This document shows positions 36,269 to 45,161 of a DNA stretch of 64,000 bases, piece by piece; within the stretch, counting starts at the first letter, position 1, and each line of letters opens with the position of its first letter. The translations under genes and the position numbers were made by a program. The DNA is from Thermoproteota archaeon (GTDB lineage: Archaea; Thermoproteota; Nitrososphaeria; Nitrososphaerales; Nitrosopumilaceae): NCBI GenBank assembly GCA_003352285.1, contig QQVN01000002.1, positions 186,001 to 250,000 of the forward strand. The letters are read 5' to 3'. The notes under the pieces are model-generated. The model had not been told where the DNA came from. It made no database searches and saw only the letters and a program-made list of their open reading frames with translations.

Positions 36269-36703
36269 ATGGTTAGCCAATACGTTTGGGTCGGCATAAT
36301 GATAGGGGCTTTCTTTGCGGGTTTTGGGATTTACCATGTAACCTTGCAGTCTAACCAACCAACTCACATGATGACCACACAACAGATGCAGCAAATGATG
36401 AATGATCCACAGATGATGAATCAGTGGCATAATCAAATGATGCAAAATCCTCAAGCAATGAACCAATGGATGAATACCATGATGCAAAATCCACAGGCTA
36501 TGCAACAAATGCATAACATGATGATGAGCAATCCACAACACATGAACCAGATGATGCAACCCATGATGAATCACATGATGGATGATCCTCAATTACAACA
36601 ACAAATGGTAAATCAAATGATGCAGCATCAGGGAATGATGAACTATATGGGAAACAACACCCAATGGCAAAACATGATGGGCAGACATATGATGATGCCT
36701 TAA
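36269..36703 (+). CDS. Membrane-anchored Met-rich protein with NPQ repeats
   Basis: The 144-residue protein has an N-terminal helix (about 5-25) and a long tail in which roughly a quarter of residues are Met, with many Gln, Asn and His. Four imperfect 14-residue repeats of the form MMxNPQxMNQxxxx span about residues 43-98. NPQ/M repeats also resemble STI1-type chaperone-binding motifs, and Met/His richness fits copper(I) binding; neither is proven. The ATG follows GTAAATAA by about 30 nt. Antisense frames over the repeats are shadows. Confidence 0.82.
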   Translation: MVSQYVWVGIMIGAFFAGFGIYHVTLQSNQPTHMMTTQQMQQMMNDPQMMNQWHNQMMQNPQAMNQWMNTMMQNPQAMQQMHNMMMSNPQHMNQMMQPMMNHMMDDPQLQQQMVNQMMQHQGMMNYMGNNTQWQNMMGRHMMMP

Positions 36704-39447: not shown

Positions 39448-39813
39448 ATGTCAGCTAAACAAGAATTTGTAGAGCAAGCAAAAGCAGGCAAGATTCTTGC
39501 TAGAAAATGCACAAAATGCAATCATCTCCATTTATCCACAGTATACTATTGCCAAAACTGTGGTGCAAAGGAGTTTGAAAATGCCATTCTTCCAGGACAA
39601 GGAACTGTTGCCACATATACCATAATTACAGTGCCTCCTGCTGGCTTTGAGAAATACACACCTTATGCCTGGGTTGTTCTCAAATTAGACTCCTCAGAAC
39701 TGCGAGTTTCTGGCTTTATGGCAAACATCAAAACCCCAGCAGATCTTCCAGTTGGTACCAAAGCTAAAATCACTGGATTTGATGAACGGGGAATCCTCAT
39801 AGAAAAGCAATAA
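39448..39813 (+). CDS. DUF35-family OB-fold acyl-CoA-associated protein
   Basis: The 121 residues have a zinc ribbon (CTKCNHLHLSTVYYCQNC, four Cys, about 21-38) and an OB-fold domain (TVATYTIITVPPAGFEKYTPYAWVVLKL). DUF35 proteins hold CoA or intermediates between thiolase and its partner enzymes in archaea. The gap to the thiolase gene is 3 bp, so they are cotranscribed and likely form a complex. No HMG-CoA synthase gene is adjacent in this window. Confidence 0.9.
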   Translation: MSAKQEFVEQAKAGKILARKCTKCNHLHLSTVYYCQNCGAKEFENAILPGQGTVATYTIITVPPAGFEKYTPYAWVVLKLDSSELRVSGFMANIKTPADLPVGTKAKITGFDERGILIEKQ

Positions 39814-39883
39814 AATAATTTATTGAAATTATTAAAAAAATCAGAGCAGTTTTCTAATTATTACAACTAAACGATTTTGATAC

Positions 39884-40045
39884 ATGTCAGTAGATGTAAC
39901 ATGTGGAAAATGCGGTGAAAAGATCACAAGTATGAAAATGCTCAAACCTCTAAAAGATGTCATGAATCCATACAGTGGAAAATGTCCTTCTTGTGGACAA
40001 GCACTTTCAACATCTGAATTTTCATTAGATGTACAAGAAAACTGA
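39884..40045 (+). CDS. Small zinc-ribbon protein, 53 aa
   Basis: The 53 residues have two CxxC pairs (CGKC near the N-terminus and CPSC about 27 residues later), so one zinc ribbon. No other domain is present. It lies between the DUF35 gene and the GATC array; the stop codon overlaps the first GATC of that region. Small zinc ribbons in archaea often bind RNA or proteins. Composition and the paired Cys support a real gene. Confidence 0.75.
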   Translation: MSVDVTCGKCGEKITSMKMLKPLKDVMNPYSGKCPSCGQALSTSEFSLDVQEN

Positions 40046-40072
40046 TCTAGTTTTACAAAAATTATCAATTTT

Positions 40073-40180
40073 GATCCAAAAACTGATCCAGTTTCCGAAA
40101 AATGATCTAATTAGATCCAAAATTGATCCAGTTGGATCAAAAACTGATCTTATTGGATCCAAAAATGATGCAGTCATAAA
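40073..40180. promoter_or_regulatory. Helically phased GATC array and TATA element before the NrdD-derived regulator
   Basis: GATC occurs at 40073, 40085, 40104, 40114, 40125, 40135, 40146 and 40156, with a GATG variant at 40167. From 40104 to 40167 the spacing alternates 10 and 11 bp, one helical turn. Most copies read (C/T)(T/G)GATC(C/T)A. The array ends beside a CATAAAT element at about 40174, roughly 31 nt before the regulator's ATG. This looks like a multi-site operator, most simply for autoregulation. Confidence 0.72.
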
Positions 40181-40206
40181 TCTTATTTACTCCTAACCTT
40201 GTAGAC

Positions 40207-42306
40207 ATGGATATGGAACTGAGCGAGGGGGTAGCGGAGCCAAAGAGGGGCGGCATACTGCAATCCACATCAAAACGTGTACGGATGATCTTTTCCGTTA
40301 TGGCCAGTCCAAACCGTATAGACATTTTAAGAATTTTAAATTCCAAGGGTCCTTTAACTTATTCAGAATTAAAGTCCCTTGCTGGATTCAAATCAAAAAA
40401 AGAGAGTGGTAAATTTGCATACCATCTTAGAAAATTATTGAGACAATCCCTTGTTGCATTAAACAAATCTGAGAGAAGATACACCATTACAAATTTGGGC
40501 AAATTAGTTCTAAGTCTTGCCAGACAGATTGAAGAACGCTCCATCATCGAAAGCGGCAAAATGTATGTTAGAACATCACATGAATCAATTGAGGAATTTA
40601 ATTCTCATAAAATTATACAATCCCTTGTCCGTGAGGGAAGCTTACCATTAGAGTTAGCACAAAAAATTACAGAAGAAGTTGAAAACAGAATTTACAAATA
40701 TCAAACAACATATCTTACCGGCTCTCTGATCCGTGAAATGGTTAACTCTGTTTTATTGGAACATGGTCATGAGGAATATCGCAATAAACTGGCCAGACTT
40801 GGACTGCCAGTATTTGATGTGCAAGAAATGCTCTCAAATATTGATAATGTCGATAATGGCGCAGAAGGCCTACTCTACAAGACAGGCCAAGTAGTCTTTG
40901 CTGAGCATTTACTCACAAATACCCTGCCTAAGGACGTGGCAGATTCACACTTGTCAGGAGACCTACACATTACGAATCCTGGAATTTGGTCACTCTTGCC
41001 TGATGCAATTTTTGTAAATATTAAGGAATTAATCGATGATGGCCTTAACCTTGGAGGAAAATTCCTAGATGTCTCACGAATACCATCTGCCAAAAACCTT
41101 GATGATCTAACCTCAACACTTTCCATGTTGATTTCACTCATCTCAAAAGAAGCCTCACAAGAGGTTGTAATGGATGGATTGGCGCAATTACTGACAAAAC
41201 ATGCAAAGAATTCTGGAGACATTGAGCAAAAACTTGCAGATGCGTTTGCAACTGCTTCAACTGTTTCAAAGTATAACAAAAATCCAACAATTGTTTCATT
41301 TAGAGTCCAACTTGGCTCTGATGCTAAGATAAACTCTGCAATTATCACCGCATACAAAAACTATGCAAGAATTACACCTATTCCAAAGATTGGTTTGATT
41401 ATTGATTATGAAAAAGGAAAATTGTCTGATGTCTCTGCTGATCTTGCAGAAATTGTAACACTTGGTGGCAAAGTAATCTTCTCTCAAGGATTAGTATCTA
41501 ACAAGGGAATTGCCAACGTACAAACAAAGAACTCTACTCCTCTTTCCATTAATCTTCATTCAATTTCAATTAACTTGCCACGACTTGCATTTGAGTCAAA
41601 CAAGGATGAGACGTACTTTAGAGCAAGATTAGCTCTTCTAATGAAACCTGCCTTGTCATCTATGGCATTAAGAAAGAAAGACATATCTGATCTAACTCGA
41701 CGTGGTCTTAATCCAATTCTTGCAAAGAATACACAGTACATGCAACGTGGTTCTGCTTCAATTGTATTGAATCTAGTCGGACTAAATGAAGCAGTTTTTA
41801 ACATTCTTGGTTACCAAGACAACAAAGAAGGTCGTGACATCTTACACAAAGTAATTGAAACTGCAGTTGAAGTTGCAAAGAAAAAAGGAAAAGAACTCGG
41901 TGATGATGTTAGAATATGCATGACAGAAAGTGACGGCTCTATAAGATTTTCAACACTTGATGGAGAAAAATACGGAAAGAATTCTGTACTAAAAGATCTT
42001 GACTCTGATTCTTACTCTGAAGGATTCACACTTAATGCATCTGAGGTAGATGGACTAACTGCAAAGAGTGAGCAAATCTCTGAATGCAACAAGCTTGCAA
42101 AAATGCTCAATGGAGGATTACTTGTTAGTCTTCAGATCGACGATGATGCAAAGATTGATGATATCAAAAAGGCAATAGAAAAGACTGGAGAATTAACATC
42201 CTCCTTCAAACCAGTAAAACACGTTTCAATTTGTGGCGAATGTGGCTTTAAAGATGAGAAATTAGGCGACAAATGTCCTTCCTGCAAGTCACCTTACATT
42301 ATCTGA
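40207..42306 (+). CDS. HTH plus ATP-cone plus NrdD-derived regulator next to ribonucleotide reductase
   Basis: The 699 residues hold a winged helix (about 25-105, RMIFSVMASPNRIDILRILNSK), an ATP-cone (about 115-210, MYVRTSHESIEEFNSHKIIQSLVREG), and a long domain resembling anaerobic ribonucleotide reductase (NrdD). It ends with a zinc site CGECG...CPSC that matches the NrdD C-terminus. I do not see the glycyl-radical site RVxGY, so the NrdD-like part is probably inactive. ATP-cones read ATP/dATP. The simple reading is a dNTP-responsive regulator of the B12-type reductase gene directly downstream. The first ATG after the TATA is used as start. Confidence 0.82.
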   Translation: MDMELSEGVAEPKRGGILQSTSKRVRMIFSVMASPNRIDILRILNSKGPLTYSELKSLAGFKSKKESGKFAYHLRKLLRQSLVALNKSERRYTITNLGKLVLSLARQIEERSIIESGKMYVRTSHESIEEFNSHKIIQSLVREGSLPLELAQKITEEVENRIYKYQTTYLTGSLIREMVNSVLLEHGHEEYRNKLARLGLPVFDVQEMLSNIDNVDNGAEGLLYKTGQVVFAEHLLTNTLPKDVADSHLSGDLHITNPGIWSLLPDAIFVNIKELIDDGLNLGGKFLDVSRIPSAKNLDDLTSTLSMLISLISKEASQEVVMDGLAQLLTKHAKNSGDIEQKLADAFATASTVSKYNKNPTIVSFRVQLGSDAKINSAIITAYKNYARITPIPKIGLIIDYEKGKLSDVSADLAEIVTLGGKVIFSQGLVSNKGIANVQTKNSTPLSINLHSISINLPRLAFESNKDETYFRARLALLMKPALSSMALRKKDISDLTRRGLNPILAKNTQYMQRGSASIVLNLVGLNEAVFNILGYQDNKEGRDILHKVIETAVEVAKKKGKELGDDVRICMTESDGSIRFSTLDGEKYGKNSVLKDLDSDSYSEGFTLNASEVDGLTAKSEQISECNKLAKMLNGGLLVSLQIDDDAKIDDIKKAIEKTGELTSSFKPVKHVSICGECGFKDEKLGDKCPSCKSPYII

Positions 42307-42338
42307 AATTCGTAAATTCATAATTCTTTTCGTCATTT

Positions 42339-42502
42339 TACGATCAAATTTTAGATCCTATCAAAAATTTTTCAAAGTCGAAAATCGTACCGTTATGAAG
42401 TTCATAGTACCGGTGTGAATAATTTTAAATCAAAAATCGATCCTGATGAATTTTTTTAGGCCACACAAGTTATAACCACAGTAAATCATACCACTGGAGG
42501 GG
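42339..42502. promoter_or_regulatory. nrdJ control region with GATC motifs, repeat and RBS
   Basis: GATC occurs at 42342, 42354 and 42439, in contexts like those in the array before the regulator. ATGAAGTTCAT forms a small palindrome (42395-42405) between two GTACCG copies (42387, 42407). GTTATAAC near 42469 would place the transcript start near 42495. GGAGGGGAG (42496-42504) is a strong ribosome-binding site before the TTG start, unlike the leaderless genes around it. Confidence 0.55.
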
Positions 42503-42512
42503 AGATTATAGA

Positions 42513-45161
42513 TTGGATAATTCACAAATAGAAAGTTCTATCGGAGAGATCCGCAAGCGAAATGGATCGGTTGTGGCTTTCAATAAAGATAAAATTTCAA
42601 ATGCCATTTACAAGGCATTAGCAGCCACGTCTGAAGCCGACCGTGGTTTAGCAGATCAACTCGCAGAGGGAGTACTAAGAAAATTATTTGAACAAGGATT
42701 TTCTGCTTCACGACCTCCAAGCGTTGAAGATATTCAGGACATGGTAGAGTCAACTTTGATCGAGAACGGTCACAGTGAAATCGCCAAGGCCTACATTTTG
42801 TATAGACATGAACGTAGAAAAGTTAGAGATGAGAAATTCAAGGTTCTTAACACAAAGACATTAGATCCAGTAGCAAAGAAATTTGATCTAAACTGCCTGA
42901 GAGTTTTGGCTTCAAGATATCTCCTACGAAATAACAAAAATGAGATTACCGAAAGTCCCAGTCAAATGTTTGAGCGTGTGGCCATCTTAATTGGCATTGG
43001 AGATTTAATGTACGATGCAGAACTCTTTGCAAAAGATGGTAACAAAAGACAAAACCTCGAAGAGGCAGAAGCATATCTAGATAAACTAGACAGCTTTGAT
43101 TACAAATTCAAGATAGGTGATTACTATCTTAACAAATGGCACTTTAGAGCCATGATTAACCACTACATAACTTTGGCAAACAAAGGTCAGATGAAGCTAA
43201 GCTTCAAAGATCTTCTGACAATGTTAGCTGCAAAGAAACTAGACAGATATGCAGACAGAATCAAAGAATACTATGATCTGATGGTTTCACAAGACTTTCT
43301 GCCAAATTCACCAACAATGATGAACGCTGGTGGACGTTTGGGACAACTATCTGCATGCTTTGTCTTAGACATGCCAGACGATATGGAAAGAATCATGAAA
43401 TCAACATCTGATGCAGCACTAATCTTCAAATCTGGAGGTGGAGTTGGAATCAACTACTCTGATCTTAGACAAGAAGGTGACATTGTAGCATCAACATCTG
43501 GTGTTGCTTCAGGTCCTGTATCCTTCATGAATATTATCAATACAGTCACAGAAGTGGTAAAACAAGGTGGAAAACGCCGTGGTGCCAACATGGGAATTAT
43601 CGAAGCATGGCATCCTGATGTTGAAAAATTCATCACAAACAAGACTCAGCCAGGCGTGCTTGAGAATTTCAATGTAAGTGTTGGAATCTGGGAAGATTTC
43701 TGGCATTCACTTGTAAATACCACAGACGGAAAGTACATGCTTAGAAGCTCACGCAACAGAGCACCAGTTAGAGAAATTAATGCACATCAACTAATTGATC
43801 TAATTGCACTGTCTGCATGGAAGAGTGCCGAACCTGGTTTGATCTTCTTTGATCAAATCAACAAATACAATGTATTTGCAAAAGCAAGAGGCGGACCAAT
43901 CCGTGCAACAAATCCTTGTGGAGAACAAAGCTTGTATCCATACGAATCATGCAACTTGGGTTCCATCAATCTGTCAAATCTTGTAAAACGCAAAGCAGAT
44001 GGTGAATACGAATTTGATTGGCAAAGATATGAAGAAACAATTCGAAAGACAACTCGATTCCTTGACAGCGTCATCGATGTCAATCTGTATCCAGTAAAAG
44101 ACATTGATACTGCATCAAAAGAATCAAGAAGAATTGGATTGGGTGTAATGGGAGTTGCAGATCTACTCTACAAACTACGAATCCCATACAACTCTAAAGA
44201 AGGATATGAAATTCAATCAAAGCTAGCAGAAGCTCTCTCATACTATTCAATGGAAGAGAGTGTTGCATTAGCAAAGTCACGTGGAGAATTCCCACTTTGC
44301 TCAAAGACAGAATATCCAGAAGGAAAGATTCCAATTGCTGGATACTATGAACGTCCAAAAGAGCAACACAGCTTTGAATGGGATGCATTAATCCAAAAGA
44401 TCCAAAAGCACGGAATTAGAAATGTACTGACAACAACTGTCGCTCCCACTGGAACACTATCAATGATTGCAGACTGTTCTAATGGAATGGAACCAATGTT
44501 TGCACTAGTGTTTGAAAAGAGAGTAACTGTTGGTCGCTTCTTTTACACAAACAAAATCATTGAGCAAGCACTCAAAGACAATGGATTGTACAGCGAAGAG
44601 ATACTTGAAAAAATTGCTGACAACTATGGCTCACTCAAAGGAATTCCAGAAATTCCAGAGTGGATGCAAAACATCTTTGTCACAGCAATGGATATTCATT
44701 GGGCTGATCATCTTATGGCCCAAGGAGTATGGCAAGAGTGGATTGGAAATGCAATCGCTAAAACAATTAACATGCCATACGATGTGACTGCAGATGACGT
44801 CAAAGCAGCATATCTCCTAGCACATGAGCTTGGCTTGAAAGGCATCACAGTTTATCGTGATGGTTCCAGACACAAACAAGTTCTTCACATGACTAGTGAA
44901 AAGGCTGAAAAAATATTCACAGTAACTCCAAGCAACTATGTCACTGACTATGTGTCAAATGCACTAGCAAACCAATACGTAAAAACCCAAGTACAAGACG
45001 CCTTGAAACTCAAAACACCAGAAGAGACGCCTGTTGAGCAGAATCTATCTGAGGAGACATCTGAGGAAAACCTTTGCCCAACATGCAAGAACAATTTGGT
45101 GTTCGTTGAGGGTTGCAGTATCTGCATAGAATGCGGATTCAGCGGCTGTACATCAGGCTAG
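42513..45161 (+). CDS. nrdJ: B12-dependent ribonucleotide reductase (class II)
   Basis: The 882-residue protein has an N-terminal ATP-cone (about 10-100, VVAFNKDKISNAIYKAL) followed by the reductase barrel. Active-site landmarks: NPCGEQSLYPYESCNLG with the radical Cys region, SACFVLDMPDD, and APTGTLSMIADCSNGMEP. The C-terminus ends in CPTC...CIECGFSGC, Cys pairs for re-reduction of the active site. It makes dNTPs with adenosylcobalamin and needs no oxygen or iron radical subunit. TTG start with a strong RBS. It is probably regulated by the upstream gene. Confidence 0.95.
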   Translation: MDNSQIESSIGEIRKRNGSVVAFNKDKISNAIYKALAATSEADRGLADQLAEGVLRKLFEQGFSASRPPSVEDIQDMVESTLIENGHSEIAKAYILYRHERRKVRDEKFKVLNTKTLDPVAKKFDLNCLRVLASRYLLRNNKNEITESPSQMFERVAILIGIGDLMYDAELFAKDGNKRQNLEEAEAYLDKLDSFDYKFKIGDYYLNKWHFRAMINHYITLANKGQMKLSFKDLLTMLAAKKLDRYADRIKEYYDLMVSQDFLPNSPTMMNAGGRLGQLSACFVLDMPDDMERIMKSTSDAALIFKSGGGVGINYSDLRQEGDIVASTSGVASGPVSFMNIINTVTEVVKQGGKRRGANMGIIEAWHPDVEKFITNKTQPGVLENFNVSVGIWEDFWHSLVNTTDGKYMLRSSRNRAPVREINAHQLIDLIALSAWKSAEPGLIFFDQINKYNVFAKARGGPIRATNPCGEQSLYPYESCNLGSINLSNLVKRKADGEYEFDWQRYEETIRKTTRFLDSVIDVNLYPVKDIDTASKESRRIGLGVMGVADLLYKLRIPYNSKEGYEIQSKLAEALSYYSMEESVALAKSRGEFPLCSKTEYPEGKIPIAGYYERPKEQHSFEWDALIQKIQKHGIRNVLTTTVAPTGTLSMIADCSNGMEPMFALVFEKRVTVGRFFYTNKIIEQALKDNGLYSEEILEKIADNYGSLKGIPEIPEWMQNIFVTAMDIHWADHLMAQGVWQEWIGNAIAKTINMPYDVTADDVKAAYLLAHELGLKGITVYRDGSRHKQVLHMTSEKAEKIFTVTPSNYVTDYVSNALANQYVKTQVQDALKLKTPEETPVEQNLSEETSEENLCPTCKNNLVFVEGCSICIECGFSGCTSG

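Follow-up and report, generated by a model that had tools for sequence, protein, structure and literature searches.

A conserved, helically phased GATC array upstream of a candidate ribonucleotide reductase regulator in Nitrosopumilaceae

A phased array of GATC sites is present upstream of a candidate regulator gene of ribonucleotide reductase (RNR) in a 64,000-nucleotide stretch of DNA from a Nitrosopumilaceae archaeon (hereafter, the window), and this array is real and conserved. We propose, with confidence about evenly divided for and against, that the array may constitute an operator for a cooperative oligomer, that binding to it would depend on GATC methylation and would set the expression of the regulator and of RNR, and that the regulator itself is the simplest candidate for the reader. 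In this proposal, the GATCs of the operator would all face the same side of the helix immediately before the regulator core promoter, and a sparser set of GATCs would be its counterpart in front of the neighbouring RNR gene. Successive GATCs, two per 21-bp palindromic unit, would be occupied cooperatively by an oligomeric DNA-binding protein, and the hemimethylated state left by replication would shift how strongly the DNA-precursor genes are expressed. The protein most simply assigned to this role is the regulator, which joins an NrdD-like part to a winged helix–turn–helix (HTH) and an ATP-cone.

The six phased GATCs start at positions 40104, 40114, 40125, 40135, 40146 and 40156 (array span, 40104–40159) with steps of 10, 11, 10, 11 and 10 bp, and the GATG at 40167 lies 11 bp after the start of the last of them (Table 1). 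The alternating 10/11-bp steps and the GATG, which had been described in a sequence-only reading of this DNA, are therefore borne out by the positions. Two more GATCs had been placed upstream of the array, and they are indeed found at 40073 and 40085, although their phasing (12 and 19 bp) is poorer than that of the main array. The TGA stop codon of the upstream zinc-ribbon open reading frame (ORF) shares bases with another GATC, at 40044. The six GATCs correspond to three 21-bp repeats, each containing a 16-bp near-palindrome, and TRF reports the region as a 21/41-bp tandem repeat with a score of 135, the highest of the whole window. At its downstream side, the array stops 12 bp short of the TTATTTA box (40183–40189), in agreement with the earlier statement that it ends at the TATA box.

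Table 1. Coordinates of the GATC array and neighbouring features in the window
Feature	Position	Strand	Remarks
Two outlying GATCs	40073..40088	.	Starts 40073 and 40085, 12 bp apart
Palindromic unit 1, TGATCTAATTAGATCC	40103..40118	.	GATC at 40104 and 40114
Palindromic unit 2, TGATCCAGTTGGATCA	40124..40139	.	GATC at 40125 and 40135; one 21-bp unit here is missing from sister genome L031
Palindromic unit 3, TGATCTTATTGGATCC	40145..40160	.	GATC at 40146 and 40156
GATG, degenerate promoter-proximal site (–6)	40167..40170	.	From comparison with 47 relatives
Core promoter block, GTCATAAATCTTATTTA, probable BRE/TATA	40173..40189	+	About once per genome; kept across the family
Candidate regulator	40207..42306	+	Winged HTH, ATP-cone, NrdD-like fold, C-terminal zinc site, no glycyl-radical loop
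Regulator–RNR intergenic region	42307..42512	+	Three GATCs (42342, 42354, 42439); family-wide GATC enrichment and phasing
Adenosylcobalamin-dependent ribonucleotide reductase, NrdJ type	42513..45161	+	Own ATP-cone; probable target

The eight GATCs in the region 40069–40206 were reached in 0 of 20,000 dinucleotide-preserving shuffles, and no run of 10/11-bp-spaced GATCs in 20,000 shuffles of the region exceeded three, the spacings within this one window being non-independent because of tandem duplication. Across the window, GATC occurs 241 times against 251 expected, hence there is no general excess, and the pair 43841/43851 is the only other one with 10/11-bp spacing. Within 454 kb of the own genome, the non-coding gaps that rank next in GATC density contain three each, and a genome-wide scan for three GATCs with gaps of at most 18 bp returned 20 matches, six of which belong to the regulator array; no denser GATC cluster was found in this genome. 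No second array like that of the regulator was found in the own-genome scans; the one other GATC triple with 10/11-bp spacing lies within a coding ORF and was rejected. A search for a genome-wide regulon through the looser motif TGATCHAAAA..GATC was dropped, as the motif was too unspecific.

The regulator was matched in 40 of the 41 genomes searched, and 80 further loci were added for comparison. Across 47 dissimilar regulator upstream regions from Nitrosopumilaceae, 172 GATCs were observed against 37.7 expected, with peaks at positions –26 and –6 from the core promoter block. GATC is the top 4-mer in both gaps of the RNR locus, with observed-to-expected ratios of 7.2 upstream of the regulator and 3.4 in the regulator–RNR gap, as compared with ~1.2 in other tandem intergenic regions. 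After correction for composition, the enrichment over control gaps of the own genome is 14-fold and 5.4-fold, respectively; it is confined to these two gaps, and other intergenic DNA is without it. The distances between GATC pairs in the family peak at 10/11, 20/21, ~31, 40–42, 52 and 60 bp, a periodicity matched by 0 of 1000 random placements, by 0 of 2000 with one locus per genus and by 3 of 2000 with the window's genus left out, figures that are not strict probabilities because random placement does not model shared ancestry. In some genera, the GATC pair is found at –10/–30 instead of –6/–26, so that the sites keep their 20-bp spacing even where they are displaced with respect to the promoter. 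By comparison, the sister genome L031 has exactly one 21-bp unit fewer, and its GATCs are kept while the bases between them have changed. Phasing that is kept while the flanks change, the comparison by which the sequence-only reading had chosen to be judged, is thus what the relatives display. The array is missing at the regulator promoter in the Nitrosopumilaceae genomes G003, G005, G017, G020 and G023, all of which carry Dam and the regulator.

These comparisons bear on the explanation that the array is a non-functional tandem duplication of a GATC-containing segment, with the phasing as a by-product of the 21-bp unit. Such an origin would suit the tandem-repeat structure of the array and the different number of units in sister genomes. 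However, the helical spacing is maintained in other genera although the sequence separating the sites is unrelated, the enrichment is limited to two gaps of one locus, and the sites stand at a fixed distance from the core promoter. The conservation argues strongly against a non-functional duplication, which we regard as very improbable.

What the sites have in common is the exact GATC. When the GATCs were masked, the six one-mismatch classes were near or below background, with a maximum of 2.2-fold, and the information in the flanks was at most 0.27 bits at any position of the RNR-locus regions. At position –6, GATC is found in 13 of 47 relatives, and a one-mismatch form occupies this position in 15 of the 34 others, as compared with 3.5% at unphased positions; these forms fit either a tolerant protein site or ancestry. 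The exact GATC as the common element, its link to Dam and the occurrence of the same sites at the RNR promoter region are absent from the sequence-only reading.

GATC is the recognition sequence of characterised Dam-family methyltransferases. A Dam-family gene is present in the own genome (G000:C5, L208:9316–10191, minus strand), where it scores 287.8 bits against TIGR00571 (cut-off, 114.85), and the closest solved relative of its product is DpnM (E = 5.8e-60). By-eye inspection of the ORF list around it (L208 7500–12500) revealed no recognisable restriction gene. The gene family was detected in 128 of 136 Nitrosopumilaceae genomes and in 20 of 20 genera, and the eight genomes without a match are drafts (30–150 contigs, 90–95% complete). 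In a published survey, this orphan methyltransferase group was assigned GATC m6A in 27 of 29 Nitrososphaerota (PMC10609329); from this survey and from the homologues, we infer that the methyltransferase of the own genome is specific for GATC. Since what the sites share is precisely the target sequence of this Dam-type methyltransferase, protein binding to the array may depend on methylation, and a response of the predicted operator to Dam methylation is held with moderate confidence.

The exactness of GATC and the family-wide Dam-type gene would also suit control by methylation alone, in which the GATC cluster would be acted on by a hypothetical SeqA-like protein or by methylation as such, newly replicated DNA of the RNR locus would thereby be marked, and the regulator would not be the reader. 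In vitro, Escherichia coli SeqA binds only where two GATCs are separated by two to three turns of the helix (PMC5145175), and such spacing is seen here. The E. coli Dam/SeqA clusters further resemble the present array in their sites on one face, their whole-turn phasing and the Dam-family methyltransferase in the organism group (PMC5145175), whereas the present array, known from its sequence, lies at an archaeal promoter instead of a replication origin. Against control by methylation alone, a SeqA homologue (PF03925) was absent from the 21 genomes searched, with a positive E. coli control. Outside the family, G031, G034 and G040 carry a Dam-type gene and have no clear array, so that the presence of Dam by itself is not predictive of the array, and the single such array in the own-genome scans points in the same direction. 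We therefore consider this explanation improbable, and return to an oligomeric protein that would read the GATCs in a methylation-dependent manner. A literature search found no papers tying GATC methylation to RNR in Nitrosopumilus.

The candidate regulator, whose ORF has an alternative possible start at 40213, contains the winged HTH at residues ~25–105, followed by the ATP-cone at residues 119–191 (PF03477; score 34.6 bits, cut-off 25.8). In a structure comparison, entire NrdD chains were matched by its AlphaFold model, whose mean pLDDT is 73.8 with low values in the HTH; the best match had E = 5.5e-23 and a TM score of ~0.56. The HTH/ATP-cone/NrdD-derived gene that had been read downstream of the array is thus confirmed, with a full NrdD-like fold that lacks the glycyl-radical end. 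The only invariant cysteines are C676, C679, C690 and C693 of the zinc site, just beyond which the chain ends, and neither the catalytic cysteines nor the C-terminal glycyl-radical site of active NrdD was found. Because there is no glycyl-radical loop and no invariant cysteine beyond the zinc site, the regulator is probably not an active reductase. Class III RNR NrdD shares with it the whole-chain fold, the ATP-cone and the four-cysteine zinc site, but the regulator adds an N-terminal winged HTH and stops after the zinc site. The gene is immediately followed by that of RNR in the window, and the same order was seen wherever it could be read in the family, as well as in several other families; from its domains and its location, its product may be regarded as a credible RNR regulator. 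The HTH and the ATP-cone are its most conserved parts, and the HTH is 96–100% identical in most of the family as compared with 55–80% for the NrdD-like part, an unusually steep contrast. A near-constant HTH beside a diverging remainder would suit a fixed operator.

In this regard, plain autoregulation has to be considered, in which a winged HTH dimer would bind GATC half-sites 10–11 bp apart, the dimers would stack, and ATP or dATP in the ATP-cone would set the oligomer, with no role for methylation. Consistent with such a mode, the sites are found at the promoter of the regulator gene itself as well as in the adjoining RNR gap, the 16-bp palindromes suit a dimer, the best-conserved parts of the protein are those that would bind DNA and nucleotide, and no NrdR was found above the family cut-off in the 41 genomes searched. 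The bacterial counterpart NrdR likewise depends on helix phase, and NrdR boxes form a pair usually 15–16 bp apart (PMC12051234). However, the recognition helix of the regulator, SKKESGKFAYHLRK, is nearly invariant also in related families without the GATC array, as in G026, where the HTH is 98% identical and the regulator and RNR promoter gaps contain zero GATCs. Because the helix is near-invariant in these families, the HTH is expected to have another, older operator. In addition, an exact GATC with no tolerated variants and near-empty flanks would be unusual for a winged HTH site. Plain autoregulation is accordingly viewed as rather unlikely, though less so than control by methylation alone. 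As for NrdR, it is likewise a nucleotide-sensing ATP-cone regulator of RNR genes with a helix-phased site pair (PMC12051234), but it has a zinc ribbon in place of the winged HTH and no NrdD-like part, and its paired boxes differ from the GATC palindromes in a 21-bp repeat. The NCBIfam models matched by the regulator do not include TIGR00244, the NrdR family.

The sequence-only reading had proposed cooperative binding of an oligomeric regulator, most simply the product of the downstream gene. The conserved phasing, the sites at the regulator and RNR promoters and the domain architecture together speak for cooperative binding by an oligomer in an RNR-specific circuit, and a reader of this kind has the best support among the mechanisms considered for the array. 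The second part stands less firmly, as the near-invariant recognition helix of array-less families (G026) counts against it; the regulator itself as the reader is plausible, with lower confidence. Binding and its cooperativity, the methylation of these sites, the direction of regulation and the identity of the reader are predictions drawn from sequence comparison.

Because GATC is also the target of a methylating enzyme found throughout the family, the GATC clusters may tie the supply of DNA precursors to replication. More tentatively, one could envisage an archaeal Dam circuit in which phased GATCs at the promoters of RNR and of a regulator, a converted NrdD with an added DNA-binding domain, couple precursor synthesis to fork passage and nucleotide status independently of SeqA and NrdR. 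If confirmed, this would assign a concrete function to the orphan GATC methyltransferase carried by nearly all ammonia-oxidising archaea and reveal how DNA precursors are controlled without NrdR in very abundant marine microbes. NrdD would then also be an example of an enzyme converted to a transcription factor for the very pathway from which it derives.

Several further observations were made in the course of the analysis. The gap 42307–42512 is strongly conserved across Nitrosopumilaceae and carries, well before the RNR TATA box, a TATGAAsTTCATA palindrome beside a CGGTGT block; the two elements are possibly a second operator. Inverted repeats of the form TGTnAA-N4-8-TTGA, considered as a different operator for the RNR gap, occur in 40 of 67 RNR gaps and in 0 of 47 regulator upstream regions, with ~30 occurrences per strand in 360 kb. 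A known RNA element or riboswitch between the regulator and RNR was rejected, as a search of 39700–42700 against Rfam returned nothing with an E of 1 or less. G030, the sole searched relative without a regulator match (1/41), carries a perfect 21-bp tandem repeat, GATCAAATGTTAGCAAAGCAG, at C2:413975–414062 and C8:10–118. Elsewhere in the window, a 144-aa ORF at 36269–36703 has a very high content of Met, Gln, Asn and His and contains 42-bp internal repeats.
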